A DNA stretch of 42,568 bases from a virus: IMG/VR virus record IMGVR_UViG_3300047550_000557, positions 1 through 42,568 of that record; one strand, written 5' to 3'. The notes under the pieces were generated by a model, which saw only the letters and a program-made list of their open reading frames with translations, was not told the DNA's origin and ran no database searches. The first letter of the stretch is position 1. Each line of letters begins with the position of its first letter. Made by a program: the position numbers and the translations under genes. Below, one piece after another: positions 11,660 to 42,372 of this stretch.

Positions 11660-12050
11660 TGGTTTCCTTTCGCAATGTTTTAGTTGTAAGAAGTAAATCT
11701 TCTACTTGTATTAAGTAGCCTTTACTTCTATTCGGTGGTATCTCGCAAGTTATCTCGCGACCGAAGTTCTTAACCGCGTACCATACATGGTCAGTAGGAA
11801 CCATGACAATACTTTGTTCAAGAACAAATGCCCAATACTCAGCTTTTGTGACAGACAATCCAGACAATTCCCAGGACTGTGACTTCATAAACCAACACTC
11901 AATCTCTACATAGACATTGTTAGTCTGATGCCACTTGCGGTCGCGCTTTACTTCTACTGTCTTACCATTAGTTAGAAGTTGTTCAACCAACTTCTCACCT
12001 TCACGACCGTAGGTGAAATCTAAATCAAAACTGGACTTGGTTATTTCCAT
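11625..12050 (-). CDS. PD-(D/E)XK nuclease-like protein, 141 aa
   Basis: Motifs: DLDFTYGREGEKLVEQLL (Glu 18) and then TVEVKRDRKWHQTNNVYVEIECW, giving Glu 33-x-Lys 35, with a further acid (Glu 49/51) in the third strand. The order fits a PD-(D/E)XK fold of the phage type annotated as uncharacterised endonuclease or resolvase-like. No C-terminal domain beyond the fold. It overlaps the RecA-like gene by 10 bases and the WhiB gene by 35. Catalytic capacity is likely but not certain, since the first Asp is not fixed. Confidence 0.7.
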   Translation of the reverse strand: MEITKSSFDLDFTYGREGEKLVEQLLTNGKTVEVKRDRKWHQTNNVYVEIECWFMKSQSWELSGLSVTKAEYWAFVLEQSIVMVPTDHVWYAVKNFGREITCEIPPNRSKGYLIQVEDLLLTTKTLRKETNELSRLNEGAM

Positions 12051-26042: not shown

Positions 26043-27020
26043 CTACGCAGTTGCGATGCTTGACTTGGTCTGAATGACGTAACGTGCTTCCTTGCGGTAG
26101 ACGTTCCATCCGAGTAGACCCTTCCAACCTGCTGGGCGGAAGCGCATCAACTTGTCAGTTACAGGACCGATAACAGTCTTTGGCTCGTAAGAAACAGCCT
26201 CAACAAGAGCCTGCTTTCCGAGAAGAACTGTTGCGTATACCTTTGAAGTACCAGAACCAGAAATGGATTCTGCACGTGGGGTTTCGATATAACGAACCTG
26301 GTCGTAGATACCGATTTCACCATTCCAGAGGTTAGCTACGCCAGCCTCAGTGTAGGTGTGTGGGAGCTGCCATGAAACGTTTCCAGCAGTTGCTGCTTCC
26401 GAACGTAGGTCGAAAGATACATCTGGGTGGATAAGCGCTGTATAGAAGCCACCTTCACGTGGTTGTACAGATGCACCGCGTAGCTTTGCAACACCCTTAC
26501 GAGCAAGAGCTGCAGAGATGTATGGAGCTGTGGTGCTTGAAGATACGTTCTCACCGTTGATGGTTGTTTCATCAGCAGAGGTTGTACCTGTATAACGCAT
26601 TGTTGCAAGAGAGGTGAGCTTGCTCCAGACTAGAGAGTCAAGAGAGTCACGCATGTTGAATGACAACATGTCTGCAACAGCTGGGTCGATAGCTGAGATT
26701 GACTCAAGAGCCAAACGCTCAGTTGTGATTACGGCATTGCCGTACTCATCTACAACAACGTTGACCTTGTCAGTGTTGTTGAGTGTTACTGCGTCTGGGT
26801 CCTGTGTCTGGGTTAGTGCGGTTGTCGCACGTGATAGGTCCTTGTAGACCTGGAAGACGACGGTGTTACCTGGGTTTGTCACATCGACTGGGCGCTTGTC
26901 CGCAAACTTACGGAACATTGGCTCAGAGCGAAGGTTAAACTCAATGTACTTGTCATACGCCGTCTGAATCAAGTTCGACATCGTTGATGTCGTAGTTGAT
27001 GTTGCGGGTGTAGTAGGCAT
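26043..27020 (-). CDS. major capsid protein, 325 aa
   Basis: Residues reading MSNLIQTAYDKYIEFNLRSEP, then VVFQVYKDLSRATTALTQTQD, VVVDEYGNAVITTERLALE, GGFYTALIHPDVSFDLRSEA, and RPAGWKGLLGWNVYRKEARY have the order of HK97-fold major capsid proteins of the N4_gp56/P22-like group. It lies downstream of the scaffold gene, and a hairpin follows. Size (about 35 kDa) is normal. It would form the icosahedral head. ATG 27020 has AAGGAA upstream. Confidence 0.85.
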   Translation of the reverse strand: MPTTPATSTTTSTMSNLIQTAYDKYIEFNLRSEPMFRKFADKRPVDVTNPGNTVVFQVYKDLSRATTALTQTQDPDAVTLNNTDKVNVVVDEYGNAVITTERLALESISAIDPAVADMLSFNMRDSLDSLVWSKLTSLATMRYTGTTSADETTINGENVSSSTTAPYISAALARKGVAKLRGASVQPREGGFYTALIHPDVSFDLRSEAATAGNVSWQLPHTYTEAGVANLWNGEIGIYDQVRYIETPRAESISGSGTSKVYATVLLGKQALVEAVSYEPKTVIGPVTDKLMRFRPAGWKGLLGWNVYRKEARYVIQTKSSIATA

Positions 27021-27054: not shown

Positions 27055-27507
27055 TCAGCCTTTGAGTAGTTTTGATAACTCCTCTGGAGAACCAGCATTC
27101 GCAATTCGCGAAGCTAAGTCGTTGCCCACGTATGGGTCAACTTCTCCATCATCAAAGCCTGACATTTGCTCAAATGCTTGAGCATCGGGGGACGGTGTCC
27201 CCTCTTCTTCAACGGCTTCAATACCGAAAGCCTCACCGTATTCGTTTAGCCATTCGGCTACAGCATCCTCATCTGCTTCAATATCATCTGGGATGAATTG
27301 AGCAATTCGTGGATTGAGTCCGAAACTTTCCAAGATTTCCCCTACAGATGCTTCGTGACTTAGTGTTGTGTACTCTGCAAGAATTTCATCGCGTTCCTTA
27401 ACTTGCTTCTGGAGCGCATCGATTTGCTTGCGAAGTTTCTTAACTAGGTCAGTTCCGCTGCCGTAGTCTTCATCTTCCATTTCGTACTCGTTGTATTCTT
27501 CAGCCAT
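27055..27507 (-). CDS. scaffolding-like protein, 150 aa
   Basis: Very acidic N-terminus (MAEEYNEYEMEDEDYG), a long heptad helix LVKKLRKQIDALQKQVKERDEIL, then acidic GTPSPDAQAFEQMSG and a short end (EELSKLLKG). The acidic-helical composition and its place directly before the capsid gene fit a phage scaffolding protein. ATG 27507 has AAGGGAG upstream; an extension to 27612 is rejected because it runs through the intergenic spacer. Confidence 0.7.
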   Translation of the reverse strand: MAEEYNEYEMEDEDYGSGTDLVKKLRKQIDALQKQVKERDEILAEYTTLSHEASVGEILESFGLNPRIAQFIPDDIEADEDAVAEWLNEYGEAFGIEAVEEEGTPSPDAQAFEQMSGFDDGEVDPYVGNDLASRIANAGSPEELSKLLKG

Positions 27508-27647
27508 TGTTTCTCCCTTATTAGTAGTTAAACCCTCTTCGGGTTCTGCACCACACGTACTCCTCAGCAGGGGTACTGATTCGTAGACGTGATGACTTCC
27601 AGACTTATACACATCACCAGGGCTGGACGGTCTGGGACGGATTCTTA
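27508..27647. other. 140-base spacer before the scaffold gene
   Basis: No gene seen. A 5-bp hairpin (AACCC/GGGTT near 27532-27546) lies close to the scaffold start. It probably carries a promoter or processing site for the capsid genes; no -35/-10 pair is convincing. It is one of the few true gaps in the late operon. Confidence 0.4.
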
Positions 27648-29312
27648 TTAAACGTCAGGGCTTCTTAGTCTTGAACCCAACGATGTCTTGTCAATAGCGC
27701 TGCGTTGCTGGAACTTAGCGCGTTCTTTAGATGCAAGCTTCTTGGTCTTGATACCAACTTCTGCTCCACCAGCAAGCGCTAGTGCTTCACGAGCTAAGTC
27801 TTCTGTGCCAGCTGTTTCGCCATATAGACCCATCAAACGACGGTAATCTTCTTGGTCACGAGCTGCGCCTTGGAAGGCGCGTTCTGCTGCATCAGCCTTA
27901 CCTGCTGCTCGGATTTCCTCACCGAATTTTTCAGTGATACCAGTCATGCCAGCACGTGTAGCTGCGCCACCAATTTCAGCAACACTGTAACGGCGCTGTA
28001 GTTCTGGTGTGGTGTATGTAAACCTAGAGTCAATTGCTCGGAATGCTTTCTCTGGGTCAAGCAGATAGGCGACCATGTCGCCTTCCGACCAACCATAATA
28101 TGATTTCAAAGCATCTTTAATGTTCTGGTCTGCGTCTTGCAAAGCACGCTTTGCTATGTTGACACGCTCGCTAACCTCAGCAACTGAAGTTCCAAGCTCA
28201 CCAATTAACTTAGTAAAGTCTTCTTGTTGGTCATAGAAATAACTAGGTAGACCAGCCTCAGACATAATCTCTTTGTATGCATTTTCTGTCTGGATATATT
28301 CTGCTGGCTTGAGAAGTCTATCTCCTGGCAATCCCTTGCCTTCTGCCATACGCTTTCTAATAATCTCATTAGCAGCAAATCTTGTTTTATATGCGTCGCT
28401 TGTATAGATACTATTAAGAACCTGTGCCTCAGTTGGCATAATATTGTCTTCATAAACTTTATCTACAGTATCCATTAATGATTTGATAAAGTCATCACCA
28501 AGACCAGTATTCTCAAACATCTTCATTACTGAGTCACGAGCGCCAAAGTCTTTATATGATTCAATAGTTTTACCAGTTGAACCATCTGACATAACTTCAA
28601 CAACGTCAACAACGCCACCAGTTTTACGGACTGTGCGAGTTCCAACAACTTTTGGCTTAGCAGCCTCAGCTGCAGCAAGTTCTTGCTGTTTTGCTAACTG
28701 TTCTGTAAGCGCTTTGATTTGGTCAAGGATTGCTTGTTGCGCTGCATCGACTGGACCTTTACCACCAGCGCCTGCGCCAACATTAGTACCAGTTATGGTT
28801 GTATCTGTGCCAGCACTTTTATTGCCAGTTCCTGTATTTCCAGTACCAGTATCACCAGCGCCAGTATCTCCAGTGCCATCATCGCCAGTACCGTCATCTC
28901 CAGTACCGTCACCTTTTGCTTTGGCAGCAGCAGCTGCCTCTTCTTGTAATCTATAGTATTCGGCAATAGCTTCAGCTTTAGCAGTAGCAGCATCTTTTTG
29001 CGCTTGGAGCGCTTCTACTTGTGCTGGAGATAAACCAGTAATTGGGTCCCTCATGTAATAAGGGTCTGTTGCTATATCGTAATCTTTTTCATCTTTAGAT
29101 GTTTGGGTTGTGCCAGTTGATTGTGCAGCTTTAGCAGCAGCTTGAGCTTGTTCATCTATCTGGTCAATCTTTGCAGCTTTGGCAGCAGCAGCATTCTGTT
29201 CTTTTTCAGTTGCTCCAGCTGGCTTGCCACTGACAGTAGTCTGCACGTCTTGCACTGCAGAGTAGAAGCTATCGCCCCCACCATCAATCATCATTCTGTC
29301 ATATATCGGCAT
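27648..29312 (-). CDS. internal virion protein candidate with Gly-Thr-Asp repeats, 554 aa
   Basis: The N-terminal third is Ala/Gln-rich helical (AAKAAKIDQIDEQAQAAAKA), residues about 135-185 are a low-complexity GDGTGDDGTGDDGTGDTGAG run, and the rest is helical (DNIMPTEAQVLNSIYTSDA, AKRALQDADQNIKDALKSYYG). Late position between scaffold and another large virion gene suggests an ejection or core protein; no family is recognised. Confidence 0.6.
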   Translation of the reverse strand: MPIYDRMMIDGGGDSFYSAVQDVQTTVSGKPAGATEKEQNAAAAKAAKIDQIDEQAQAAAKAAQSTGTTQTSKDEKDYDIATDPYYMRDPITGLSPAQVEALQAQKDAATAKAEAIAEYYRLQEEAAAAAKAKGDGTGDDGTGDDGTGDTGAGDTGTGNTGTGNKSAGTDTTITGTNVGAGAGGKGPVDAAQQAILDQIKALTEQLAKQQELAAAEAAKPKVVGTRTVRKTGGVVDVVEVMSDGSTGKTIESYKDFGARDSVMKMFENTGLGDDFIKSLMDTVDKVYEDNIMPTEAQVLNSIYTSDAYKTRFAANEIIRKRMAEGKGLPGDRLLKPAEYIQTENAYKEIMSEAGLPSYFYDQQEDFTKLIGELGTSVAEVSERVNIAKRALQDADQNIKDALKSYYGWSEGDMVAYLLDPEKAFRAIDSRFTYTTPELQRRYSVAEIGGAATRAGMTGITEKFGEEIRAAGKADAAERAFQGAARDQEDYRRLMGLYGETAGTEDLAREALALAGGAEVGIKTKKLASKERAKFQQRSAIDKTSLGSRLRSPDV

Positions 29313-29316
29313 TTAT

Positions 29317-30681
29317 TTACCCCAAGTATCCAAAGTCACGGAGAATTGCTTGAGCAATTCCAGTCTTCTCTTCTTTTGCTTGTTGCGTTCTATCAAACAT
29401 ATCTTTATTACGGCGAGCTAACTTCTTTGTGTCATAAAGATTCATGGTTGTGAAGTTGCCCTTTTCATCTTGGGCATTAATTGCTCGCTGAACATAATCA
29501 TTATTTAGGTCAAGAGAATCTGGGTCTACTTCCCATGTCATAGCAACTGCATTGAGCCATGGGTTAGCAGCTTGACGAAGAGTCTGACCTTGGTCGATAA
29601 ACTTAGCCAGACCAGGCGCAAATGACTTTGCGCGTTCTTGAAGTAGGTTATCTACATCTTCTGGGTTGGTAGTGCCAGCAACAAGACCTCTAATGTTTCC
29701 CTCAAACCACTGACCAAATGCCTCATTTGACATTGTCTGTGGGAATCCATAGTCCCATGCTCGCTTATACAGCTCGCTAGCCATAGTTTCTAACTTGCCA
29801 GCTAAGCCATTATACGTAACTCGACCATCAATAGTTCCTGTTTTCTCAAACTTAATTGAGTCAGCCATTAATTTATTTAGATAATCTTGGTCGAATCTAA
29901 CAACCTTGCCATCTTTGATGACTACTTGCTTCATCATATTCTCGGCATATTCAATAGCCTGTTGTGCTGTAAGGTTAAGACCCATAGAAGCATATTGCTT
30001 GACAATATTGCTTGCGTTCTTTTGTAGGTCTGCAGCAAACTGACCAGGGTTAGTTGCTTTGAAATAATCGTATGTACGTTGAGTATCAGTCTGGTCACGA
30101 TACCAAGATGTACCTTTGATGATTGCTTCCTGCAATGCAGGGTCAGTAATCATTGGTCCACCACCGACACCAAGAATCTTATTGAGCGCTTCAACCAAAC
30201 TTGGGTTGTTAGCTAATACGGCAGCAGCAATACCAAACTGAGCTTGAAGCTGAGCCATCGATAATGTATCTCTACCAGTTGGGTATACCGATGAAACATC
30301 ACCGCTTACTGGATTGTTGCCATACCCTGGGTCGTATTGAGATGTGCTTGGAAAAGCCCATGATGTGCTTGGTGTTGTAGTAGCTGGTGTTGTTGGAGTA
30401 AACGGAGTGTTTGGAACCGTGCCAACATTTGGTCTAGGAGTAGTAATTTTTGGTAAATCTTTAGATTCGCCAGCACGCCATTTAGCTACATCAAAGTTTC
30501 CACCTAACGGTCTATTGCCAAGATTAGGTGATGTTGGCTTACTTGCTGTTTTTTTTACAGGAGTAGGAGTTGGTTTAGGCTTTGGTGGAATAATTGACTT
30601 ACCGCCAAATGGTCTACTTGTAACTGGTACAGTATTGCCACCTGTGTTCTTAGGTTTTGGCGCTGGTTTCTTAGCAGGCAT
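29317..30681 (-). CDS. internal virion protein candidate with Pro/Lys N-terminus, 454 aa
   Basis: N-terminal Pro/Lys tract (MPAKKPAPKPKNTGG, KPKPTPTPVKKTA) then the block SPNLGNRPLGG at 52-61, shared with the next protein, and a helical C-terminal half (AVLANNPSLVEALNKIL, NNDYVQRAINAQDEKGNFTT). Likely a DNA-ejection or core protein that is packaged in the head; Pro/Lys tails fit DNA contact. Inference from position. Confidence 0.6.
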   Translation of the reverse strand: MPAKKPAPKPKNTGGNTVPVTSRPFGGKSIIPPKPKPTPTPVKKTASKPTSPNLGNRPLGGNFDVAKWRAGESKDLPKITTPRPNVGTVPNTPFTPTTPATTTPSTSWAFPSTSQYDPGYGNNPVSGDVSSVYPTGRDTLSMAQLQAQFGIAAAVLANNPSLVEALNKILGVGGGPMITDPALQEAIIKGTSWYRDQTDTQRTYDYFKATNPGQFAADLQKNASNIVKQYASMGLNLTAQQAIEYAENMMKQVVIKDGKVVRFDQDYLNKLMADSIKFEKTGTIDGRVTYNGLAGKLETMASELYKRAWDYGFPQTMSNEAFGQWFEGNIRGLVAGTTNPEDVDNLLQERAKSFAPGLAKFIDQGQTLRQAANPWLNAVAMTWEVDPDSLDLNNDYVQRAINAQDEKGNFTTMNLYDTKKLARRNKDMFDRTQQAKEEKTGIAQAILRDFGYLG

Positions 30682-31565
30682 TATTGAACCACCTCACCAA
30701 TTGCGTTAGGGTCTTTCAAGATACGATTGATTAGTCCCAATACAGTCTTAGTTGCAAATGATTCTGCAAAGTCGGGACGACTTCTAGCAAAGTTAAGTGC
30801 ATACATTGATGGGTCAAATGAACCACTTGTCATTGATTCAGTTGTAGTTGAACCAAGGTTAGGGCTTGTTGCCTTAGCGCCAGCAGCTGCACCAGCAGGA
30901 ACTAGGTTTCCTTTACCTTGCGTGGTTGTAACCTTTTGGGTTGTGACAGTTGGTGATGCTTTAGCTGCAGCATTTACTCCAGCAAGATAAGCGTCGACTT
31001 CTTCCTTGGTAGCAGTTCTACCAACTTCAGATTCGATATATCTATTGACTGTGCTTCCAGCCTCAGAAGGGCTGTATTGGGTTGTAGAAATTTGTTTGTT
31101 AATGCTGGTTCCATACTTAGGACCAGTGCTGCTACCTGCATAATCAGATGGGTCTAATATCCCAAGGTAACCTGATGGGTCAGCCATGCCATTGATAAGC
31201 GGTGGATTAGAACCAATTGTTTGAGTCCAGTCAACAGCATCTTTCCATACAGAGTTCCACTTTGATTTTGGAATACCAAGCGCTGTTAATCGTGCAGTAA
31301 ATAAATCATATGCCTTACGTGCAGGAGTTCCTTTAGGAGCTTTAGCTGCTACAAGTTTGAACCAACCATACGCTTCTGATGCTTGAACGCCACGATTATT
31401 AAATCCTGGTAATCCAATAGGAGGAATGTCCATGCTTGGATTAAAGACTGGCGATGGATTCTTTACACCAAGCGGTCTATTCCCAAGGTTAGTGCTTGCT
31501 GCTTTGGCAGGCGTTGTCTTTGGAGTAGGTGTTGGCTTTGGTGTAGGTTTTTTAGTTTCAGCCAT
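30681..31565 (-). CDS. internal virion protein candidate with the same N-terminal block, 294 aa
   Basis: The N-terminus MAETKKPTPKPTPTPKTTPA and STNLGNRPLGVKNP (25-38) mirror the 454-aa protein, and a further SPNLGS occurs later. The rest is helical (EAYGWFKLVAAKAPKG, KAYDLFTARLTALGIPKSKW). Start at 31565 overlaps the 1641-aa stop; the in-frame extension is rejected. Together with the 454- and 1641-aa proteins it probably forms the internal core. Confidence 0.6.
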   Translation of the reverse strand: MAETKKPTPKPTPTPKTTPAKAASTNLGNRPLGVKNPSPVFNPSMDIPPIGLPGFNNRGVQASEAYGWFKLVAAKAPKGTPARKAYDLFTARLTALGIPKSKWNSVWKDAVDWTQTIGSNPPLINGMADPSGYLGILDPSDYAGSSTGPKYGTSINKQISTTQYSPSEAGSTVNRYIESEVGRTATKEEVDAYLAGVNAAAKASPTVTTQKVTTTQGKGNLVPAGAAAGAKATSPNLGSTTTESMTSGSFDPSMYALNFARSRPDFAESFATKTVLGLINRILKDPNAIGEVVQ

Positions 31566-34500
31566 TATCTCTTCACCACAATCTCTTCGTTTAATTCGGG
31601 TATGTTGTTCAACCATCTATAAGAAAACGCAGCGAACTCATCCGATGCGGTCTGCAAGAAGTCATAATGGAACTGAGAGAACTGAGCTTTCAGCGAAAAC
31701 TTTCTCTCATCCGTGTTTCCTGGTTGGTCATATGCGGTTTTGAATCGACGCGCTGCGTCGACCCAGTAGGCAATTTCTTCCCACTTGTCACCGCTCTTAT
31801 AGGCGTGTGTACGCCAGTTAGTATCTGCAACAATCTTTTCTACTGTTGGGATTAAACCTCTCCAGTAGTCTTCACGATTGTTGTTGTATGCATCTGTCCA
31901 TCCAGGGAAATCCTTAGAAATGGAATCAATCATCTTGTCGTACTCTGCCTTGATACCACTACGTTCGTACATAACTGATTGAGTAGATGGGATTCCATAT
32001 TGATACATCAAAGCATCGCGCCATTCCTGCGCCTTTTGATACTCAGCCCAACCACGACGTGCTTCGGTTTCTGACTGGATTCCTCCAACGCCAGAGATTT
32101 TCTTACGCTCGGTGATTGGTAAATCTACAGTTCCAGGGAAATCTAATCTCTTGTAGATTGCTGCGATTTCCGTTGAGTATTCTGTATTGGTTGTTAAATC
32201 GCTGTCGTATCCAGAGGAAAGCATCCCTGCATACTTAGAGTTTGCTCGCCCTAAAGTTTCAAGCAATCCTTGAAAGTTGCGAATAATCTTTATATCTTTT
32301 TGTGTGGCAGCAAGTCCTGCGTTGTTACGCTGGCTAGAACCAATCAAGGCTAGGGAGTCAATGCCCCAATCTTCAACCATCTTCTTCTGCGCTAAATCGT
32401 AATCGCCCTTGTATTCATCTACCAAGTCTGCATAGTAGGTGGTTGCTGCGCGAGTAACTGGGTCAAAGGCAACTGATATAGGTGCGCTGAACTGCGTTAC
32501 GGCGCGAATAAACATCATAACGCCAGCTGCTTTAGCAGCTTGTCTTGGTGTCGGAGGATTACCTACACGACCATTTCTATCCCATTCGGCGTAAGCAGTC
32601 TTCCATTGAGCCATGATTTCATCGGCTGCTCTATCAGAACCATCTTTACCAAACATTAATTTAAGACTGTCAGATAAAGACTTGCCATACCCTGGGAAGA
32701 TTGTGTTAAGTGCTGTGTCTACGTAACCGCCACCCTGGGTTGGATAACCACCATAGATAACGCTTGACTCAAATACGTCATCACCAAGAACATTACGCAT
32801 TCCTTGCGCTAGTTCTTCGCCATAAATCTTCCATGGTCCTACGCCAAAGCCATCTTTGATTAGCTCTGAGATTGTTACAGAACCAAACCATGATACTGAT
32901 GGGTCGGCAACCATAAACTCTAATTGCTTAGGATTGATGCGAATTCCGCCACCACGTACATCTGTGTATGGTTTAAGGGCTCCTTTTAGCCAGCCAGGTA
33001 CTTTGTCATGCAATGGGAACTTAACGCTTACAGGAGTTCCTGGCGGAACATCCTTAATGCTTGAGTAGGTATTTCCATCCTGGTCTTCATAAGCCTGGAA
33101 CTTATCCATTGCTGTAGCAATGCTGTTGTACCAGTAAGCATTCATTGGGTTGCGAGCCATTAGGCGAAGCGCAACTGCTTGGCTGTTGAAAAAAGCCAAA
33201 GGGAAGCTCATAGCGTAACGCGCCACGTACATACCATTGGTTAGGCGACGTGAAGAGTAAAGAGTTCTTTCTACGCGAGCAAGTGCATTTCTATACGCAA
33301 TCTGACGAAGTTCATTGTTTACAACAATATCCGTAGGGCTCATGCCAGCACGTTCTGCTGCATTGATTAGCGTCTTCATTTCATCACGAGCATATGCAAG
33401 GAAGAGCGGGTTACGAGCCATTCTGTTTTCAGAATAAGCAAGAACCTTCCATGCTGTATCTAATGCGCCTGATGCTTTAGCTAACCCTTTTTCAAGATTG
33501 TTCAAATCGCTAAGCTTTAAGCTTGGTCCATCAATAGACTCAAGTAGGTCTAGTCTGCCTTCTAATGCAGCTGACACTTCTTTAGGCGTTACGTTCCTAC
33601 TTAGAATCACATTACGTAATTCTTCGCTTGGATACATACGCATCAACTTGTCTTGAGTTTCATCAATCCATGCTGCAAAGTCATCTTTGCTCATTGGTCT
33701 GCCATAGCGAGATTCCATACGGCGACGGTATTCTTTACCTGCTGGGCTATATAACCACTTAAGTACATCACCTTGTGAATCACCACGAAGCATCATGCCA
33801 ACAGGCATATCTAGTTCGTTACGAATTTGGCGGTTTGCTATGTGGGCAAGCGCGTTCCAGTATTCATCGCCATCGCTTCGCTTAATTTTTACGAATCGTG
33901 ACCCATCGTATCTAACACGGCGAGCAATCTCTGATTGCATAGAGGCTGAATAGAAGTTTTGGCTGCTATCCACCTCTGCCATATAAGCACCAACACCACG
34001 TTGGTTAGGGTCTGCAAGCCCTTTGATTGTATATTGTTTACCGCTTGCGCTGGTGATTACTTCATCTTCCATGCCAAGCGCTTTGGTTTTGGTAAGGTCG
34101 CCCTCTTCAAAAGCAATAGGTAGAAGCTTCTCACGTTCTAATTCAATAAGCTTGGCATAACCATTTATCTCATCAGCAACTTTATTTAATGCATTATCTG
34201 CAGCGGTAAAGTCATTCAATGCTGCAAAGTATTCATCCTCAGCTGCATGATATGCAGCGTGGACATCTGGATTATCGCTTTTAGCAGCACGCGCTTTTAG
34301 TCTGTCGCGCTTTGCAGTTGCCTGCTTTAGCAGTTTTTCAGCATCGTCGGCAGTCTGTTCTGCTGCTTCTTTAATAGCAATCTTTGGTTCTAAATCACTG
34401 CGGAACTTCTTAATGTTGTAGCGAGTTTGTTTAGCAATCTTGCGCTCATTAAATTTAGGGCTCCAAGGAACAAACTTCTTAAGTCTTTCAGTTCTAAGTG

Positions 34501-36490
34501 AACTATTGTAAAGGAAGTTAGACATTCCTGGTAGTGAGTTACGAACAATCTCTGTTGACTCAAGAGCCATACTTGCACGTGCAATAGGGTCGACCATTGA
34601 GTTTTTTGGAATGTAAGCAAGGCGTAGCAAGTTTAAGTTGCTAAATGCCATATTAGCCAAGTCTAGGAACTCACCTAACTTAACACCGCCTGCTGCAAAA
34701 CGAGCTCTGCGAACATCAGCTGGCTTCACCAATCCTTCGCCAGTTCCGCGCAAATGCATAATAACGTCGCGTTCTAACTTGGCAAAGTCAAGCATGGGAA
34801 GGGTCTGTGCTTCGTTAGCAACAGAAATAAAGTTTTGGTGGTTAAGCGCACCATCTTCTGGAATGTAGCCGTTCTTTGCAGCGTATGACTTTAGCGTTGA
34901 GCGGTTATCACTAATACGTGAATGCCAACTCTTCATACGCTTGATGGCATCATCGGTTGTCCGAACATCCATCATCTCAGTAACGCCATAGCGTTTAGCC
35001 AAACGCTGTAGAATTTCTTGTTCAATCTCTGTCAATACAATGGCACGAGTTGTGTCATCTTGAGCACGAAGAAACTTATTAACCATATCGCGCTTGAATG
35101 CAGCACCTTCTGCTCCCTTAAGAAACAGAACGCGGTTTAGGTCAGAACGTAAATCGTTAGCTGCCTCAAAGCGACGTGGGTTAGAAATGTTAATATGACC
35201 CTGTGGACGACCTGACCCTGTCCATGCAATGACTCGAATCAATCTGTCGTAAGGCTCAGACTGGTAAACTTTTACCTTCCAAGCGCTATTGCCATCTTTA
35301 CCAAATAACTTTAGGTCACCAAACTGTGCTTGGTTTGTTATCTTCTTGCGGGCAAGATTGAGTGACTCAATTGATGCATACTTACCTGGGGTATAACTTT
35401 CAAGCACACCCATCTTAGTCTTATTTAAGAAGTCATCAAGTGCGTTAGCAAAATCTCTATCAGTTGCTTTCTTAGCATCAATTACTCTTTGATAACGCTC
35501 GGTTAGCTTTGGGCTAAGTTCATCAAGATTTAGGTCTTCAAAACTAGATATTGGCTTAGTAAGCTGAATTCCATAATTATCTAAATGGTCAGCTTTAAGC
35601 GGATTCTTTTCAAAGAATCTTAAAAATGCTGCTGTATCGCCACGCTCAGCAAGCAAATAATCTGCAACATCTTGGTGGTTATCTAACCTAGATACAATTG
35701 TTGCAGTACGGTATGGGTTAGCGGTTTCGCTAACCAATGGGTTTGAAGATAACTTGCTGACATCTTTTTCTTTTACTAAGTCATCTACAAGTACGCTAAG
35801 CCCAGAGCGGGTACGCTGCTCAACAGGCAAAGCTTGGTCAGCAACAATGTCATTTAGTTGTGAACGAAAAGCGTTCATATCTTCAGGTGTTACTAGCTTG
35901 CTAGGACCAACAACCTTTTTGGCTCCAGCGCGAACAACTGTCCCCATGCCTTTGCTTCCAATAGCAGCTAGTGCAAGGTCAGTTGCGCCAGATGCAAAGA
36001 TGCCTAACCATTCATCGCGGAACGCTTTATCACGTTTCTTGTCATCAAAGATGTCAAAGTTGCTATCCATAAAGGATGGCGTAATTTGGTCTGGTAGCAA
36101 TCTACCAGCTGCTTGACCTACGGTTGTGGCAAGAGCCTGACCCATAGAAATCTTTTTAGATTGTTCTTTTGCATAGCGAAAAGACTGAACTGGATTACCT
36201 TTACCAGCAAGCATAGCTTGCGGTGTAAGCAACGCAGTTGATACACCTTGAGTTAAAGGTTGTACAACTTTCTGTCCAAAGAATTCAAGAGCACGCATTG
36301 CTGGATTTAGCACAGCGCCAAGTATTGGCTTCTTGCTTCCAGCTTCAAGAGCACCAGCAACCTTTGGAAGAATTGCTTGCTCTACTTTACCAACTTTAGA
36401 TTCGTCAGTTTGTTGTTTCTTAAACTTGTCTATCTTAGATGTTGGACGAGATACAGGAGTGTCTTCGTATAAATCAGCCCATAGACTCAT
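31565..36490 (-). CDS. very large internal virion (ejection-type) protein, 1641 aa
   Basis: One reading frame of 4.9 kb with charged helices (IAIKEAAEQTADDAEKLLKQ, AYHAAEDEYFAALNDFTAAD), PKNSMVDPIARASMALESTE, and a C-terminal half rich in Trp/Tyr (WRTHAYKSGDKWEEIAYWVD). Length and location after the portal fit giant virion-associated RNA polymerase- or ejection-type proteins of podoviruses. I see no polymerase or peptidase motif. No frameshift visible. It overlaps the 56-aa gene start by 17 bases. Confidence 0.65.
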   Translation of the reverse strand: MSLWADLYEDTPVSRPTSKIDKFKKQQTDESKVGKVEQAILPKVAGALEAGSKKPILGAVLNPAMRALEFFGQKVVQPLTQGVSTALLTPQAMLAGKGNPVQSFRYAKEQSKKISMGQALATTVGQAAGRLLPDQITPSFMDSNFDIFDDKKRDKAFRDEWLGIFASGATDLALAAIGSKGMGTVVRAGAKKVVGPSKLVTPEDMNAFRSQLNDIVADQALPVEQRTRSGLSVLVDDLVKEKDVSKLSSNPLVSETANPYRTATIVSRLDNHQDVADYLLAERGDTAAFLRFFEKNPLKADHLDNYGIQLTKPISSFEDLNLDELSPKLTERYQRVIDAKKATDRDFANALDDFLNKTKMGVLESYTPGKYASIESLNLARKKITNQAQFGDLKLFGKDGNSAWKVKVYQSEPYDRLIRVIAWTGSGRPQGHINISNPRRFEAANDLRSDLNRVLFLKGAEGAAFKRDMVNKFLRAQDDTTRAIVLTEIEQEILQRLAKRYGVTEMMDVRTTDDAIKRMKSWHSRISDNRSTLKSYAAKNGYIPEDGALNHQNFISVANEAQTLPMLDFAKLERDVIMHLRGTGEGLVKPADVRRARFAAGGVKLGEFLDLANMAFSNLNLLRLAYIPKNSMVDPIARASMALESTEIVRNSLPGMSNFLYNSSLRTERLKKFVPWSPKFNERKIAKQTRYNIKKFRSDLEPKIAIKEAAEQTADDAEKLLKQATAKRDRLKARAAKSDNPDVHAAYHAAEDEYFAALNDFTAADNALNKVADEINGYAKLIELEREKLLPIAFEEGDLTKTKALGMEDEVITSASGKQYTIKGLADPNQRGVGAYMAEVDSSQNFYSASMQSEIARRVRYDGSRFVKIKRSDGDEYWNALAHIANRQIRNELDMPVGMMLRGDSQGDVLKWLYSPAGKEYRRRMESRYGRPMSKDDFAAWIDETQDKLMRMYPSEELRNVILSRNVTPKEVSAALEGRLDLLESIDGPSLKLSDLNNLEKGLAKASGALDTAWKVLAYSENRMARNPLFLAYARDEMKTLINAAERAGMSPTDIVVNNELRQIAYRNALARVERTLYSSRRLTNGMYVARYAMSFPLAFFNSQAVALRLMARNPMNAYWYNSIATAMDKFQAYEDQDGNTYSSIKDVPPGTPVSVKFPLHDKVPGWLKGALKPYTDVRGGGIRINPKQLEFMVADPSVSWFGSVTISELIKDGFGVGPWKIYGEELAQGMRNVLGDDVFESSVIYGGYPTQGGGYVDTALNTIFPGYGKSLSDSLKLMFGKDGSDRAADEIMAQWKTAYAEWDRNGRVGNPPTPRQAAKAAGVMMFIRAVTQFSAPISVAFDPVTRAATTYYADLVDEYKGDYDLAQKKMVEDWGIDSLALIGSSQRNNAGLAATQKDIKIIRNFQGLLETLGRANSKYAGMLSSGYDSDLTTNTEYSTEIAAIYKRLDFPGTVDLPITERKKISGVGGIQSETEARRGWAEYQKAQEWRDALMYQYGIPSTQSVMYERSGIKAEYDKMIDSISKDFPGWTDAYNNNREDYWRGLIPTVEKIVADTNWRTHAYKSGDKWEEIAYWVDAARRFKTAYDQPGNTDERKFSLKAQFSQFHYDFLQTASDEFAAFSYRWLNNIPELNEEIVVKR

Positions 36491-36644
36491 TTGGCGCAGC
36501 CTCCTCTTTATCCGTCAATTCCTGTAACATTGCATATCGGTCATCGTCGGATTCAAAAGGAAACTTGGCTAGGTCCCATGCCAACGGAGCCATTTCAAAA
36601 CCAAGGGCTTCGAGATTCTCCTCGAACTTCCTTAGTATTTTCAT
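36474..36644 (-). CDS. small acidic protein, 56 aa
   Basis: The frame MKILRKFEENLEALGFEMAP to EEAAPNESMG* has ATGA overlap with the previous stop and a 17-base overlap with the 1641-aa gene. Helical and acidic. No family. It could be a chaperone for the giant protein. Confidence 0.55.
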   Translation of the reverse strand: MKILRKFEENLEALGFEMAPLAWDLAKFPFESDDDRYAMLQELTDKEEAAPNESMG

Positions 36645-37057
36645 TGTGTTTGACTCCGTAGATATTTAACAAAAGCTTTCATGGTTCCTGAAGATTGTGA
36701 TGAATCTGCAAACTGCATCATCATTGGCATGTACTTAGCAATACGCGCTAAATCTTCTAGTTGAGCATCCGTCGGTGATTTAAGTCCTAAGACTTCGCGA
36801 CCTGGTCCTGGACCAGCATCTACGCCAGCAGTAACTGGTTCATCTGGTCTACGTGTAGGCGCATTTAATGGAACGATGTTAGCCATCAGGTCGCTAGCAG
36901 CAGGGCGTGGTCCTTGGCTTTTAGCCATAGGAGCACCCGCTTGCTGTTCCTGAAATTGCTTTTGCTCACCATAGGCAGCATTAGGAAGGCGTTTTGCACC
37001 TTGACGGTCAGTCCTTTTTGCAAAAGGACCAGGACCTGACGGCTGCATCATTGACAT
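36641..37057 (-). CDS. hypothetical virion-region protein, 138 aa
   Basis: Pro/Gly/Gln-rich and low complexity N-terminal half (MQPSGPGPFAKRTDRQGAKR, QKQFQEQQAGAPMAKS) and a helical end (QLEDLARIAKYMPMMMQF). Unknown. Its location between the LysM protein and the giant virion gene suggests a structural or assembly role. Confidence 0.6.
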   Translation of the reverse strand: MSMMQPSGPGPFAKRTDRQGAKRLPNAAYGEQKQFQEQQAGAPMAKSQGPRPAASDLMANIVPLNAPTRRPDEPVTAGVDAGPGPGREVLGLKSPTDAQLEDLARIAKYMPMMMQFADSSQSSGTMKAFVKYLRSQTQ

Positions 37058-37065
37058 TTAGTTAC

Positions 37066-38484
37066 CTACTTCTTTGGAATACGTACTTTCGTTCCTGACC
37101 AAATCATTGCACCCTGCTTATATTTCTTTTTCTTCATGATTTCAGGGTTTGCTTCACGAATTGCTGCAAGTGTTGTTTGGTTTGCCTTAGCAATTCCAGA
37201 AAGGGTGTCACCTTTCTTAACGGTATACGTGCTACCGCCAGCTCCAACAGTTGTTGCAGGTGCTGGAGTGCGACCTTTTGCCATAGCTTCTTTCTTAACG
37301 CTATAGTCTTTACCAATTGGTTTAGGTGCAGTAGCTTTTCTTGCGCCTGCTGGTTGCTTTGTTAAAGCTCTTAATACTGGTTCACCTAATAGTGATGCAG
37401 CAGTAACTGCTAAACCAACACGACCAGTAACAGCTTTACCAGCTAGACGTGCTGCTCCTTTAAGGAAACCAGCTTTGCCAGCTTTCTTTGCGCCTTCTTT
37501 AGCAACTGTAGCTACAGCGCCTTTAGGACGAATAGCAACTGCTTTACTGGTAGATGGTTTAACTGCAGCTTTCTTTACAGCTGCTTTCTTTTGTATAAAC
37601 TTAGCTGGTTTAGCACCTTTAGATGCTTTTTCTGGCTGAGCAGTTGTAATGTTATATGTAGGTGTTTTTACTTTTTCACCTAATGCGTTTGCTGCTCTAT
37701 TGCTTGCTCCTGGCATACGCTTTTTAACTGCTTCACCTTTTGCGGTTAACTTAGTTTCTACCTTAGAGGCTTTAGCAGCTTTAGCTTTTTCAGTATCAGC
37801 TTTGGTAATTACAATTTTTTTGCCAGCAGTTGGTTTATTAGCTGACCAGTTTTTACGTTCTGCTGGAGTCATTGACTTCCATGCTGCTTTATTAGCAGCA
37901 GATTTTTCAGCACGAGTCATTTTTCCAGAAAGCGGAGTTCCTGGTACATTAACTGGTTTCTTTAATGACTTTACCATTGACTGCTTAGGCGCTTCTGGTT
38001 TAGCTGGGCGCTTACGCTCTTTAATAGTTGCTGCAGCAGCCTTCTTTACAGGACGGCTAAGTGGCTTTTCTTTTGGAGCAGACTGCAATAAGCCAGGTGC
38101 TGGCTTGCCTTTACGTGCAGCTTTAGCTGCTTCGTTTCTTGCTTTAACATCAGCTTCTTTAGCAGCCATACGCTTATCGCGAGCTGTTTGTTTTTCAGTA
38201 TCTGTTTCCTCGCGAAACTTACGCAAAGCAGCTTGACGCTCGCGTGCAATACGCTCTCTGGCAGTTTCATCAGGCTTTACTTGAATCTTGTTGCCTCTAT
38301 CATCAGTGATGTAGCGACCTTTAGATTCTTTTGAAATCTCCTTGAAAACTTCACGGTCTTCAGCAGAATACTTTGCCATGGGGTCACGGCGTGCTGCTTT
38401 AGTCTTACCAGAAAACGCTTCTTTAGCAGCAGGTCTTGCTGCTCTTTTCGCTTGGCGATACTTTTTTGGTGTCTTCTTCGCCAT
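37066..38484 (-). CDS. very basic protein with C-terminal LysM domain, 472 aa
   Basis: Most of it is a Lys/Ala-rich repetitive helix resembling histone-like tails (KEAFSGKTKAARRDPMAKYS, PKEKPLSRPVKKAAAATIKE). Residues about 415-472 are a LysM domain: STYTVKKGDTLSGIAKANQT, TLAAIREANPEI and WSGTKVRIPKK. The LysM would bind peptidoglycan; the basic stretch could bind packaged DNA. The combination fits a virion protein that contacts the cell wall during DNA entry. Confidence 0.75.
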   Translation of the reverse strand: MAKKTPKKYRQAKRAARPAAKEAFSGKTKAARRDPMAKYSAEDREVFKEISKESKGRYITDDRGNKIQVKPDETARERIARERQAALRKFREETDTEKQTARDKRMAAKEADVKARNEAAKAARKGKPAPGLLQSAPKEKPLSRPVKKAAAATIKERKRPAKPEAPKQSMVKSLKKPVNVPGTPLSGKMTRAEKSAANKAAWKSMTPAERKNWSANKPTAGKKIVITKADTEKAKAAKASKVETKLTAKGEAVKKRMPGASNRAANALGEKVKTPTYNITTAQPEKASKGAKPAKFIQKKAAVKKAAVKPSTSKAVAIRPKGAVATVAKEGAKKAGKAGFLKGAARLAGKAVTGRVGLAVTAASLLGEPVLRALTKQPAGARKATAPKPIGKDYSVKKEAMAKGRTPAPATTVGAGGSTYTVKKGDTLSGIAKANQTTLAAIREANPEIMKKKKYKQGAMIWSGTKVRIPKK

Positions 38485-38659: not shown

Positions 38660-40423
38660 TTATGCTGGGATTTGACGAGTTACTCGACCTGCGAGAACTG
38701 GATTACCTGAACCAGTTAGACCTGCTAGCAGTTCCTGCATTGCTGGTCTACCGCCCTGCTGCATCTGTGGCATACCGCCACCCATGCCCATAGGCTCTTC
38801 TGGTTGCGCCATTTCTGGTGCTTGTCCTTCTGTTTGTGGTGCTGGTTCTGGCTTGAACGCTTTGGCTACCGCATTTTCAAGCGGTGTACCTTTCTTGCGT
38901 TCATCAATAACAGTTGCCATTTTTTCAACAAGTGACATCGGGTCTTGACCTTGCGAAACCATTTGAGGTATTGCTTGTGCAAGTGATGATATAGAAGCTT
39001 TAAGGCTATCTCTCATCTCTTCGATATCAATTGCTCGCTCTTCTTCTCCAGCATTGAGCGAAATCGGTAGATTGCGACGTAGCATTCCTCGTGAGATTAG
39101 CTTGTCGCCACGTGCTTGTAGACCCCATACCAATGCACGGTTAGGGTCAAGTCCAGCCATCAAGCCATATTCAACTGTTACTCCGTAGTTGCCGTTGATA
39201 TCGCTTGATGGTTTGTATTTTAATTTGTATGGAACACCATTGGCGGTTGCAGATACTTCGCGAGATACTTCAGCAAAGTACGCTTCATCGGTAGCGAATG
39301 CCATTGAGATAGCTTCACCGATTGCTTCACCAAGGATTGATTGAATAACTTTGATTTGTGAATCGAATCCAGCCATAAGTGCCTTGACACCTTGACCAGT
39401 AACGATAGAACCCTCTGCTTGACCTGCACGTGCTTGCGGGAAGCGGGTTCCTAACTTCATTTCATCTGCGAGAACATTGTTCTCGGCAAATGCAAACTGT
39501 GGTACGTCTAGGTTTACACGACGTATTTTCTCAGGACTGTTCGAACGAATGACCGAATCTGGACCAACGGATAGCTGAGTAACATCAGTGGGAAGAGCAA
39601 GAGGAGCTTCAACAGACTTTTGCACAGCCTCCATAGTAAGTAGGGCAAGACGCGCCTTTGCTGCGTACACTGGCAGAACATCATCGAATGAGCCTCGGAC
39701 TTCGCCGTCAAGCGAAGGACGCTGAGCAATCGCAACTGGGACTCGACCGATTTTGTTTGGTGCTTCGGCAAGTACAACACCTCCACGTTCTGGAATGAAC
39801 ATAACGCTACGGCGCTTATCAGTCCAACGTACTACTTCAAGTAATTGGTTCTCATCAGTACGGTGACCGAATGCGTTTGCTTGCAGAATCTTGTCTGCGA
39901 CTTCAGGGAACTTGGCTGCTAAATCGCCAGCCTTGCGATAGTAAGAACGGCAGTAAACAGATACTTCCCCGAATCTGTCCATGTCATAATACGCACCCAT
40001 GGAATTCTCAACATGGATATGCGGTCTTTTTTCTTTGAAGTTTGGTTCAATACGGAATGCACAGAAACCGTATGTTCCAAGCTGGTCTGCGCCACGCAGT
40101 AGCTCTGTACCAAGTCTGGAAGATGCGACGTAGTAATTCGCAATCTTAGTTCTCTTATCAGCCTTGGTGCGCTGGGAATCATCAAGTGATGAATCACCAG
40201 CTGCTGTTATGGTAGGTAGTACACCTGCCTGCTCAGCAACATCGCGGGCAACCACATCAATCAGGTTGGCGATAATAGGCTTTGACCATGTTCCCTCTGG
40301 GAACAGACCACGGAATACCTGGTCGGCATTGCCAGCACGTACCATGGCAACGTCGCGCATACGCTTGTCGCGTTCTGCATTACGAGCTTTTAATTGCTCA
40401 TATGCTTGTACAAGTTCTCTCAT
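38660..40423 (-). CDS. portal protein, 587 aa
   Basis: A portal-type layout: helical N-terminus (ELVQAYEQLKARNAERDKRM), ASSRLGTELLRGADQLGTYG, wing strands (FCAFRIEPNFKEKRPHIHVE, VEVVRWTDKRRSV-like), stem helices (DEMKLGTRFPQARAGQAEGS, VTGQGVKALMAGFDSQIKVI) and a Met/Gln-rich tail (GMGGGMPQMQQGG). It would form the dodecameric channel for DNA packaging. ATG 40423 is chosen; a GTG at 40429 overlapping the TerL stop is possible. Confidence 0.85.
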   Translation of the reverse strand: MRELVQAYEQLKARNAERDKRMRDVAMVRAGNADQVFRGLFPEGTWSKPIIANLIDVVARDVAEQAGVLPTITAAGDSSLDDSQRTKADKRTKIANYYVASSRLGTELLRGADQLGTYGFCAFRIEPNFKEKRPHIHVENSMGAYYDMDRFGEVSVYCRSYYRKAGDLAAKFPEVADKILQANAFGHRTDENQLLEVVRWTDKRRSVMFIPERGGVVLAEAPNKIGRVPVAIAQRPSLDGEVRGSFDDVLPVYAAKARLALLTMEAVQKSVEAPLALPTDVTQLSVGPDSVIRSNSPEKIRRVNLDVPQFAFAENNVLADEMKLGTRFPQARAGQAEGSIVTGQGVKALMAGFDSQIKVIQSILGEAIGEAISMAFATDEAYFAEVSREVSATANGVPYKLKYKPSSDINGNYGVTVEYGLMAGLDPNRALVWGLQARGDKLISRGMLRRNLPISLNAGEEERAIDIEEMRDSLKASISSLAQAIPQMVSQGQDPMSLVEKMATVIDERKKGTPLENAVAKAFKPEPAPQTEGQAPEMAQPEEPMGMGGGMPQMQQGGRPAMQELLAGLTGSGNPVLAGRVTRQIPA

Positions 40424-40425
40424 TA

Positions 40426-42372
40426 TCACAATCTCGCTATTCGCTGGGCAGCAGCTAAATCATCTAGGTTAACAATGTACCTGTCATCAATCGCCTTGCG
40501 CGGAGTGAATTCATTACTTAAGAAGTTGGGTACATTGGTCGCTGTTAGTAGAACGTCACGAGCTACAATTTCGCAGAACCAAAGCGCCATGACAGCGTCC
40601 ATCTTTAGTTTCTTGCCTTGTACTCCTGGTTGCCAAACAACCAATTGTTCTATCAGCTTCTTTACATGTTCGTTTCGTGAAGAGTCTGGTAACTCAATCA
40701 TGTTGTCACCAGCATGCTTCAGGTTGTTGTTATTGCCATCGCGTTTAACGATAGTGCCAAACAACGGAGCCAGAGAAGCTACACCAAACTCTGGGTCTTG
40801 TTTATTATTACCTGTGTAGTGTGGGCGGTAGTTAATACCGCGAGTTGACAAGAAGTTTCTAATCTCCTCGTCCTGGGTCAAGAAAAGCTGGAAAGCATTT
40901 GACTCAACGATAACGGTATGCGGTTTATACGCATCGGTCCATTCCCGAATCAAAGAGCGAATCGCTGCAGGTGTGGGGCTGCTCATGACGTGAACGTCCA
41001 TGACATAGCGCTTGTGTGTTCTGCGGTCGACTGCGTAAGCAACTGCTGCGGTGTCACCAGACATCGCGGGGTCAATACCAATAATGCGATAAAAGTTCTG
41101 AGCATTATCAGGATGACCAGCAGCGCCTGCAACCAGCGCACCCGATTTTCTCATTCCGTTTACTGCGCCTCTAACGCACATCGGGTCGAAGATTGCATTC
41201 TCTGCGATATCGAGATTCTGGTAAACCAAAGACCATTTGGATGGACCAGCCTCGTTACGGACCGCAGTAAGACGCGGTCCTGTCCATCGGTCAAAGTAGC
41301 CATTCTCATCTGGGGTATCATCCTCAGTGAGCGGTTGCTCTGATTTACCCCAAAGAGTTTTCCAGTCTTTAGGGTCATCTGCGTACTCAAGTACGGCAGG
41401 CATGGACAAATATGACCACGGTACGATTCCGTCCGTGTAGTGCTGTGGGTTACGAAGTTCTTTATATAAGTCGGTAGCAGAAACGCGAGTACCTACCACA
41501 AGAAGCTGACCGCCTCCAGGCGGTAGACGAGAAGCAACTTCTTGCCTAATCCATTCTTGCTGCTTAGCCCACTCTCCAGCGTTAGAGAGAGTGACCACGT
41601 CGTCAAGTACGATTAAATCAGCACGAGCACCGTAGACTTGACCGCCCATACCAATAGCTTCAATGGTTGGGTCTTTAGCATCTGATTCGCGGACATCCGC
41701 TCCCAGATAAATCTTGTTTGCCGACCACATGTCGGCTGTAGCTTTGTAACCATCGGCAGGACCAAAGGCTGCTTGTAGGTCTGCGTACCGAGGATGAGTC
41801 AGGCGTTGCTTGATAGCGTATAAGAACTTCTTTGCCTGCTCTTGGGTCTTAGAGATAACGATGACATTGATGTTGGGATTTTTTACCACACGGTAAGTCA
41901 CGTAGTTAATCGTGATGGTCATGGTCTTGGCATGGTTTGGTGGAACATTTACCAAGAGGCGGGAGAGTCCCGCCGACCCTTTTTCGTAAGTCATCGCTTG
42001 GTGTATCCAGCGAGGTTCCTTACCTTCCAACATATCGACCACATTGAGCATATGGTCCCAAACTTTGGCTCCCAGGTATTTCTCAGAAAAGCTCGCGAAG
42101 TCGTTTAGACCAGAGCGAGCGTCTTCAGCCAGGTCTTGAGTTCTAAACCGAGCATTATCTATATAGGCAGCGAAGCCTTCAGCTTCGCGCCTCTGGGTGT
42201 CATACCAAGAACGACTACGACCAACAACCTTTAGTCCGTCGGCTATTGTGCGCCCTTGGCGCACCAGGTCAATCAATTCTTTTCTGGCTTCTTCTGGGGT
42301 TAAATTTCTTTCCAAGTCATCTCCAGGGTCTGTAGGGGTCCACAGGGGTCTGGACAAAGGTATCCCCACCAA
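40426..42372 (-). CDS. terminase large subunit with N-terminal HTH-like part, 648 aa
   Basis: ATPase motifs: Walker A NVPPNHAKTM (142-151), Walker B LIVLDD (253-258). Nuclease motifs: IIGIDPAMSGD (Asp 434), VIVESNAF (Glu 490) and KMDAVMALWF (Asp 592). Residues 25-70 (TPEEARKELIDLVRQGRTIA, DGLKVVGRSRSWYDTQRREA) resemble the DNA-binding helix-turn-helix of small terminase subunits, which is otherwise not found here. The start is TTG 42372 or GTG 42369; no ATG or strong ribosome site exists. First late gene. Confidence 0.88.
   Translation of the reverse strand: MVGIPLSRPLWTPTDPGDDLERNLTPEEARKELIDLVRQGRTIADGLKVVGRSRSWYDTQRREAEGFAAYIDNARFRTQDLAEDARSGLNDFASFSEKYLGAKVWDHMLNVVDMLEGKEPRWIHQAMTYEKGSAGLSRLLVNVPPNHAKTMTITINYVTYRVVKNPNINVIVISKTQEQAKKFLYAIKQRLTHPRYADLQAAFGPADGYKATADMWSANKIYLGADVRESDAKDPTIEAIGMGGQVYGARADLIVLDDVVTLSNAGEWAKQQEWIRQEVASRLPPGGGQLLVVGTRVSATDLYKELRNPQHYTDGIVPWSYLSMPAVLEYADDPKDWKTLWGKSEQPLTEDDTPDENGYFDRWTGPRLTAVRNEAGPSKWSLVYQNLDIAENAIFDPMCVRGAVNGMRKSGALVAGAAGHPDNAQNFYRIIGIDPAMSGDTAAVAYAVDRRTHKRYVMDVHVMSSPTPAAIRSLIREWTDAYKPHTVIVESNAFQLFLTQDEEIRNFLSTRGINYRPHYTGNNKQDPEFGVASLAPLFGTIVKRDGNNNNLKHAGDNMIELPDSSRNEHVKKLIEQLVVWQPGVQGKKLKMDAVMALWFCEIVARDVLLTATNVPNFLSNEFTPRKAIDDRYIVNLDDLAAAQRIARL

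Follow-up and report, generated by a model that had tools for sequence, protein, structure and literature searches.

The DNA considered here is a viral sequence of 42,568 nucleotides (IMG/VR record IMGVR_UViG_3300047550_000557, positions 1 to 42,568; hereafter the window), and our subject is the 1641-residue protein, referred to as the giant, whose gene lies on its minus strand between the portal and capsid genes. The giant probably belongs, as its largest component, to an ejection cassette of short-tailed phages of Actinobacteria, and is present here in a copy with an empty cargo slot. We infer that it is a virion protein and is ejected because of its gene order, the wall domains of its partner proteins, its fast divergence and its podoviral relatives. 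More tentatively, and at somewhat less than even odds, the giant may be a standardised delivery arm. The tip of a helical hairpin would then be a single mobile slot, through which near-identical backbones exchange an ADP-ribosyltransferase (ART), a ParB-like domain or other enzymes. Each lineage would thereby deliver its own early effector to the actinobacterial host, and the arm in its entirety would be traded, as one cassette, for unrelated giants that have come to work likewise. The window giant itself is the empty-slot form and an ordinary-looking member of an uncharacterised family, and its interest lies in the context of that family. No account of the function of the giant or of its cargo slot was found in the open-licence literature searched.

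A conserved giant of a family without assigned function

The reading frame of the giant is a real, conserved gene on which purifying selection acts. Frame 1 of the plus strand is full of stops across the same interval. Comparison with the giant of locus L002, which is 94% identical at the protein level, reveals 445 silent and 93 replacement changes over 1641 codons, the differences being distributed 103/33/469 over the three codon positions; comparison with L004 gives 570 silent and 305 replacement codons. Full-length homologues are common in IMG/VR. Two of the scans for relatives kept 80 of 197 and 80 of 263, respectively; loci from overlapping scans repeat contigs, and distinct open reading frames (ORFs) are counted where so stated. 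In one such locus, L060 (6034-11021), the giant is broken into two overlapping frames, either by a sequencing error or because the gene is broken.

A preliminary description of this DNA, made from the sequence without database searches, had pointed to an ORF of 1641 residues that takes up more than a tenth of the genome and has no known domain. All of this is confirmed: the ORF accounts for 11.6% of the 42,568 bases, on the minus strand, which had not been stated, and conventional domain searches stay silent. The best Pfam match to the giant (E 0.11) falls short of its cut-off, the NCBIfam scan returned no match at E<=1, and a PDB sequence search gave a single match that is not usable (E 1.6). 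By contrast with these scans, the PHROGs profile phrog_10618 covers the giant from end to end (1302 bits; residues 2-1640, profile positions 3-1720 of 1722). This family has no assigned function and includes gp10 of the Streptomyces phage Manuel; the match is thus not to a plain structural core family, the outcome which the preliminary description had named as speaking against its view. A weak match to phrog_17469 (E 0.0085) is also seen at residues 1183-1263 (window 32702-32944, minus strand).

Features of the giant and its conserved motifs are as follows.
31565-36490, minus strand: giant, 1641 residues, phrog_10618 family, proposed ejected internal virion protein (PHROGs match, homologues, codon test)
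34598-34615, minus strand: YIPKNS, residues 626-631, invariant in the aligned window-type and F5-type giants (15 and 39 sequences; alignment)
33179-33220, minus strand: RYAMSFPLAFFNSQ, residues 1091-1104, well conserved among window-type giants, at the beginning of a hydrophobic stretch (alignment)

Relatives and gene order

When the giant was searched by tblastn against a phage collection, a single record was found, OX376641, which is the Planktophila phage LanE43-AprF5 (F5; 22% identity over the local match). F5 is one of the first two cultured phages of 'Ca. Nanopelagicales', and LanE43AprE7 (E7, OX376640) is likewise a cultured Planktophila phage. The giant of F5 has 1711 residues and the same gene order as that of the window. 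A search with the portal matched 31 records, 29 of them Streptomyces phages, with 39-43% identity among the matches listed. Manuel (MG518519), placed in the Beephvirinae, encodes a gp10 of 1646 residues that is annotated as hypothetical and is itself a member of phrog_10618; against the profile of the window family, gp10 scores 99.0% in hhalign (E 8e-18, columns 256-1632).

The order terminase, portal, giant, partners, small protein and capsid is common to the window, F5, E7 and the Streptomyces phages Manuel, FlowerPower, Kumquat and Abafar. Among the four Streptomyces phages, the giant and the four proteins downstream of it are homologous, and the giant with two of its partners belongs to the same families in the window, the Streptomyces phages and F5. 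Abafar, a Manuelvirus, is a podovirus whose tail measures 16 nm in electron micrographs (PMC11536984, consulted in part), and it is through this relationship that a short tail may be ascribed to the window phage.

The minus-strand genes of the window are listed in their order of reading, with the giant between the 138-residue and 311-residue proteins.
40426-42372, minus strand: terminase large subunit, phrog_38 (PHROGs)
38660-40429, minus strand: portal, phrog_104, 39-43% identical to Streptomyces-phage portals (PHROGs)
37066-38484, minus strand: basic protein of 472 residues with a C-terminal LysM (peptidoglycan-binding) domain (PF01476, E 4.5e-10)
36641-37057, minus strand: upstream neighbour of 138 residues, phrog_8200, also present in E7 and F5 (PHROGs)
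30681-31616, minus strand: partner of 311 residues, weak match to phrog_13037, the Manuel gp11 family (PHROGs, E 0.0027)
29317-30681, minus strand: partner of 454 residues, phrog_6654 at its C-terminus, low-complexity N-terminus (PHROGs)
27648-29312, minus strand: partner of 554 residues, phrog_8424 at its C-terminus (PHROGs)
27055-27612, minus strand: protein of 185 residues, phrog_7813 (PHROGs), scaffold-like by its position and by a weak scaffold match of its F5 homologue (E 0.0038)
26043-27020, minus strand: major capsid protein, phrog_1357 (PHROGs)

A search of GTDB genomes did not recover the giant: 149 stretches fitted the search pattern and none was confirmed, and no host is therefore named. 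A WhiB-like cysteine motif ending in WGG, a hallmark of actinobacteriophages, was picked up by regular expression at about 11480-11674 on the minus strand, and a sigma-70-like factor that is absent from the preliminary description is encoded at 7746-8384, also on the minus strand. According to a paper on Planktophila phages, WhiB occurs throughout the Actinobacteriota and nowhere else, and the phages described there encode both whiB and a sigma-70 factor (PMC10202952). Taken together, the WhiB-like motif and the sigma-70-like factor suggest that the host is probably an actinobacterium and that its RNA polymerase is probably steered by the phage.

Partner proteins and changeable wall domains

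The main argument for a role of the giant in crossing the cell envelope comes from the changeable wall domains of its partners. A regular expression detects a LysM-like motif near the N-terminus in 48 of 60 distinct window-type homologues of the 454-residue partner; the remaining 12, including the protein of the window, are without it, and three Streptomyces sequences typed as window-like by best match were excluded from the 60. Manuel (L222, 12627-15235) encodes two adjacent phrog_6654 paralogues, gp12 and gp13. The former carries an N-terminal NlpC/P60 peptidase domain (E 2.6e-29), and the latter is annotated as a glycosylase and has no Pfam match, its counterpart in FlowerPower containing an SLT transglycosylase domain (E 3.6e-5). 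The module thus appears often to pair a giant with changeable wall-binding or wall-cutting domains, to which F5 and E7 are exceptions. In the window, LysM is found on the 472-residue protein and not on the 454-residue partner, and this domain seems to move between genes of the module. Pfam and PHROGs scans found no wall hydrolase in the window's own cassette.

Fast divergence and exchange of the cassette

Among 34 distinct loci of the window clade that have all six genes, median pairwise identities are 88.2% for the terminase, 84.9% for the portal and 88.1% for the capsid protein, and 56.3%, 54.6% and 62.5% for the giant, the 454-residue and the 554-residue partner, respectively. Judged by these medians, the giant and its partners diverge faster than the portal. 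Fast divergence relative to the portal has also been reported for the gp15-like proteins of T7 relatives (PMC8954989, in the part consulted). In one pair of loci, L063 and L117, the portals are 97.1%, the capsid proteins 95.4% and the terminases 95.1% identical, the partners 78.6% and 81.7%, and the giants 51.1%, as if it were mainly the giant that had been replaced.

An exchange can also be recognised in the cultured phages. E7 and F5 are reported to share 96.8% average nucleotide identity except over an island of 8 kb, whose hypothetical genes are said to have no homologues in the respective other phage and which the main text of the original paper describes without assigning it (PMC10202952). 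In the corresponding loci L013 (F5) and L141 (E7), the flanks are 96.3% and 98.7% identical, and there is no blastn match between the flanks, that is, from 18040 to 26306 in L013 and from 5874 to 14422 in L141. The exchanged block comprises most of the phrog_8200 protein (160 and 147 residues), the giant and the two next genes, the giant and the two following proteins measuring 1711, 364 and 482 residues in F5 and 1764, 442 and 530 residues in E7. In both phages the small proteins and the partners are of the same families: by blastp, the phrog_8200 proteins are 50% identical, the 482- and 530-residue proteins 26% identical (E 9e-13), and the 364- and 442-residue proteins match at E 0.002. The two giants are not similar by blastp (best E 0.092), and at the profile level the E7-type giant was also ruled out as a remote homologue of that of the window (hhalign 0.1-0.2%). 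Since the partners are faintly to clearly similar, the published statement that homologues are absent holds at the nucleotide level only. On the strength of these alignments, the published island is a swap of the giant and its neighbours.

A single cargo site in related giants

Several F5-type giants are about 150-225 residues longer than their relatives, and the extra part lies at one point. Alignment of 73 distinct F5-type ORFs yielded 57 that span this site, of which 46 are empty, five contain an ART and six contain a weakly ParB-like insert. Two further ART-bearing sequences, L101 (on the contig of L219) and the fragment L102, which does not span the site, stand outside the 57. Internal inserts of at least 35 residues are confined to reference residues 819-829, except for one 60-residue N-terminal case, L259.

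Cargo-bearing giants are found at the following loci.
ART: L093, L098, L100, L221, L275
ParB-like: L094, L096, L097, L265, L267, L270

The ART inserts pass the cut-off of PF03496, with E 2e-16 to 3e-18 in three giants and E 2e-16 and 6e-15 in two more. All five contain the motifs TFRG, [SA]FSST and E-x-E-W, which we take to be the R-S-E triad of arginine-type ARTs. The six other inserts share a GNHRL motif and are mutually similar in 15 of 15 BLAST pairs; their ParB label is a weak one, as ParB_N matches two of the six below its cut-off (E 0.018 and 0.029) and Pfam does not match the other four. A PDB sequence search with a profile of three ART inserts and with one ParB-like insert returned nothing.

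The cargo moves independently of the backbone, as indicated by three lines of evidence. Firstly, near-identical backbones hold different cargo: the giants of L098 (ART) and L097 (ParB-like) share 98.1% of 1714 backbone residues, and the empty giant of L092 is 95.4-95.6% identical to both. Secondly, on a backbone tree calculated without the insert region by a quick method, in which L275 and L235 are long branches, the three cargo states require 11 changes, compared with 10.7 for shuffled labels. Thirdly, the ARTs of L275 and L093 share 75% identity, while the giants in which they reside are 44% (L275) and 85% (L093) identical to a common reference, L081. A comparable arrangement may exist among the unrelated giants, since the E7-type giant of L212 (2368-7941), the only long one of ten distinct E7-type ORFs, has a GNAT-like insert in a charged, helical-looking stretch, scoring 22.2 bits as the insert alone (cut-off 20.7) and 17.5 bits within the whole protein.

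The presence of ART raises the question of its target. ART has been reported in 24 freshwater phages, some of them predicted to infect Actinobacteria, as a 'Trojan horse' against eukaryotic grazers (PMC6802176, consulted in part); these are possibly, though not necessarily, the same proteins as the present ones. Accordingly, the giant and its inserts could be imagined as a late-made effector or toxin that is not part of the virion. We consider this very improbable: the ART is located mid-way in a conserved giant encoded among head genes, is missing from most copies, and alternates at the same site with a ParB-like domain, which we read as pointing to a bacterial target. The present relatives thereby offer a bacterial-target alternative to the anti-grazer reading of freshwater phage ART.

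Predicted structure of the window giant

AlphaFold2 was run on two overlapping segments of the window giant with 39-sequence alignments. The models are weak, with a mean predicted local distance difference test (pLDDT) score of 57.7 for residues 1-860 and 68.0 for residues 590-1641, and, at this low confidence, nearly all helical. In the N-terminal run, a helical hairpin is the longest segment to be modelled well; its blocks of ten residues reach a pLDDT of 79-94 (residues 681-790) and 64 (residues 791-800).
34088-34459, minus strand: long antiparallel helical hairpin, residues 678-801 (helices 678-737 and 741-801; N-terminal model, also in the overlapping model)
34265-34288, minus strand: hairpin tip, residues about 735-742, aligned with the F5-type cargo site and empty in the window (alignment and model)

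As the aligned proteins are 20-24% identical, the position of the site in the window protein is approximate. All 81 distinct window-type ORFs that were caught by two anchor motifs have a spacing of 190-196 residues across the slot region, and this near-constant spacing implies that none of them contains cargo. A search for ART in the window found none, with controls that responded in five of 14 cases and never above the cut-off.

In structure comparisons with Foldseek, Manuel gp10 ranks fourth among the BFVD neighbours of the C-terminal model (probability 1.00, E 1.9e-14, 15% identity, template modelling (TM) score 0.32-0.39), and no PDB entry matches this model at E<=0.001. Rows from VIA (Z about 9.5-12) fall mainly on the hairpin and bring up colicin E receptor domains, efflux adaptors, SMC arms and other long helices; we read them as a common arrangement, not as kinship.

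Low-scoring helical matches to models of tape-measure proteins (E 3e-4 and worse) might suggest that the giant is a structural tail or tail-hub protein, tape-measure-like or a scaffold of the short tail, which stays in the virion, and two of the partners are indeed annotated as 'minor tail protein' in Manuel, Kumquat and FlowerPower. We regard this as unlikely, albeit the most serious of the alternatives. The tape-measure rows, which were discounted together with other weak BFVD rows, have a TM score of about 0.1, a value that any long helical protein would be expected to give; Abafar, a relative that has been studied, is short-tailed; and ART, ParB-like and GNAT inserts would be hard to account for in a component that stays outside the cell.

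A proposed ejection cassette

In the ejection model that we favour, several copies of the giant would be packed inside the head near the portal. At infection they would be expelled in unfolded form, together with the 454- and 554-residue partners and possibly the 311-residue and LysM proteins, and would refold across the cell envelope as a path for the DNA through wall and membrane, where LysM, NlpC/P60 or SLT domains of the partners would bind or open the wall. In the cargo-bearing relatives, the hairpin would serve as a stalk on which an enzyme enters the new host as infection begins. A hint in this direction is given by amino acid composition, as an absence of cysteine would suit a protein that unfolds to pass the portal: none of the 1641 residues of the window giant is a cysteine, nor are there any in the giants of Manuel, FlowerPower, Kumquat and Abafar, and cysteine-free giants make up 101 of 107 window-type and 21 of 21 F5-type rows (rows include duplicates).

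Several observations weigh against this model. The composition argument is weakened by ten E7-type giants with one to three cysteines, and by the capsid protein and one 601-residue protein, which are also without cysteine. The LysM-like motif is found by regular expression in none of 24 F5 and E7 partners (0/15 F5-type, 0/9 E7-type), and the three F5 or E7 partners scanned with Pfam have no wall domain. Cargo is present in none of the 81 distinct window-type ORFs, so that the idea of delivery draws on relatives of 20-24% identity, across which the alignment of the site is uncertain. The most hydrophobic stretch of 19 residues reaches only 1.44 on the Kyte-Doolittle scale, Manuel is not among the 50 best BFVD rows for the N-terminal model, and models this poor do not allow a channel or membrane segments to be asserted. 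The literature searched held no virion proteomics of the phage or the giant, and the PHROGs scan returned phrog_10618 and the weak phrog_17469 match, with no T7 or P22 ejection protein. Finally, a review of ejection proteins places them in podoviruses of Gram-negative hosts, with Mycobacteria listed among these, and describes phi29-like phages as being without them (PMC8954989, in the part consulted), so the analogy crosses envelope types. The same part of that review mentions that most gp15-like proteins were matched by size and synteny rather than by sequence.

Comparison with known systems places these points in context. The closest counterparts are Manuel gp10 and the other Beephvirinae giants, which are homologous over most of their length and share gene order and partner families, but differ in their identity of about 21%, their Streptomyces hosts and their NlpC/P60- and SLT-bearing partners. 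The F5 giant has 22% local identity and the same synteny; ART or ParB-like cargo is present in some of its near relatives and in no window-type ORF examined. The 1764-residue giant of E7 occupies the same genome slot and has partners of the same families, without detectable homology to the window giant, and it is an E7-type relative, L212, that has the GNAT insert. The T7 proteins gp14-gp15-gp16 may work in a like manner, with a very large helical protein (weakly predicted to be helical here), a wall-degrading activity in the module (here known from Streptomyces relatives) and fast divergence (PMC8954989, in the part consulted); they differ in having no sequence match and a Gram-negative host, and in that the T7 wall enzyme is on gp16 itself. 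Lastly, the cargo-bearing relatives may work like polyvalent proteins and T4 Alt, whose ART or ParB-type domains have been proposed to be injected with the phage DNA (PMC5512222, consulted in part). Polyvalent proteins are strings of many domains, in contrast to one interchangeable domain at one site; by their defining number of at least two disparate domains, the window giant has none recognised and its cargo-bearing relatives have one each.

To our knowledge, little is known about how short-tailed phages cross the actinobacterial wall, a topic for which no search was made. The cassette provides named genes to test in the cultured Planktophila phages E7 and F5 and in the Streptomyces podovirus Abafar, and it gives a reading of the published E7/F5 island. 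In addition, cargo that differs between near-identical giants amounts to a natural experiment that could show which functions a phage has to deliver first.

Enzymes within giants and the question of a hidden RNA polymerase

The preliminary description had proposed that the giant is an ejected RNA polymerase or core protein, possibly with a diverged enzyme hidden in it. An ejected protein of the core type fits best, and the polymerase is left without support. A single-subunit, N4-like RNA polymerase that is packaged in the virion and too diverged for profiles would agree with the size of the giant and its place among virion genes, and a podoviral virion RNA polymerase fused to an ART domain is mentioned by Iyer et al. 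2017 (PMC5512222, in the part consulted). PF00940, the sole polymerase family searched for in the whole window, has no match there, which could speak for such a hidden enzyme; as the control genomes were equally silent, this is weak evidence, and it does not prove the statement of the preliminary description that no RNA polymerase is encoded elsewhere by the phage. We nevertheless judge a polymerase to be the least probable of the alternatives, and extremely so, given that PHROGs, Pfam and NCBIfam scans of the giant detect no RNA polymerase family, that the models are nearly all helical (at low confidence), and that the phage encodes a sigma-70-like factor, which suggests that it uses or redirects the RNA polymerase of its host. 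Similarly, no other diverged enzyme emerges from the profile searches and the weak helical models of the window giant. The expectation that enzymes ride in such proteins finds no support in the window giant and is borne out in its relatives, where ART, GNAT-like and ParB-like domains are found at one site per giant.

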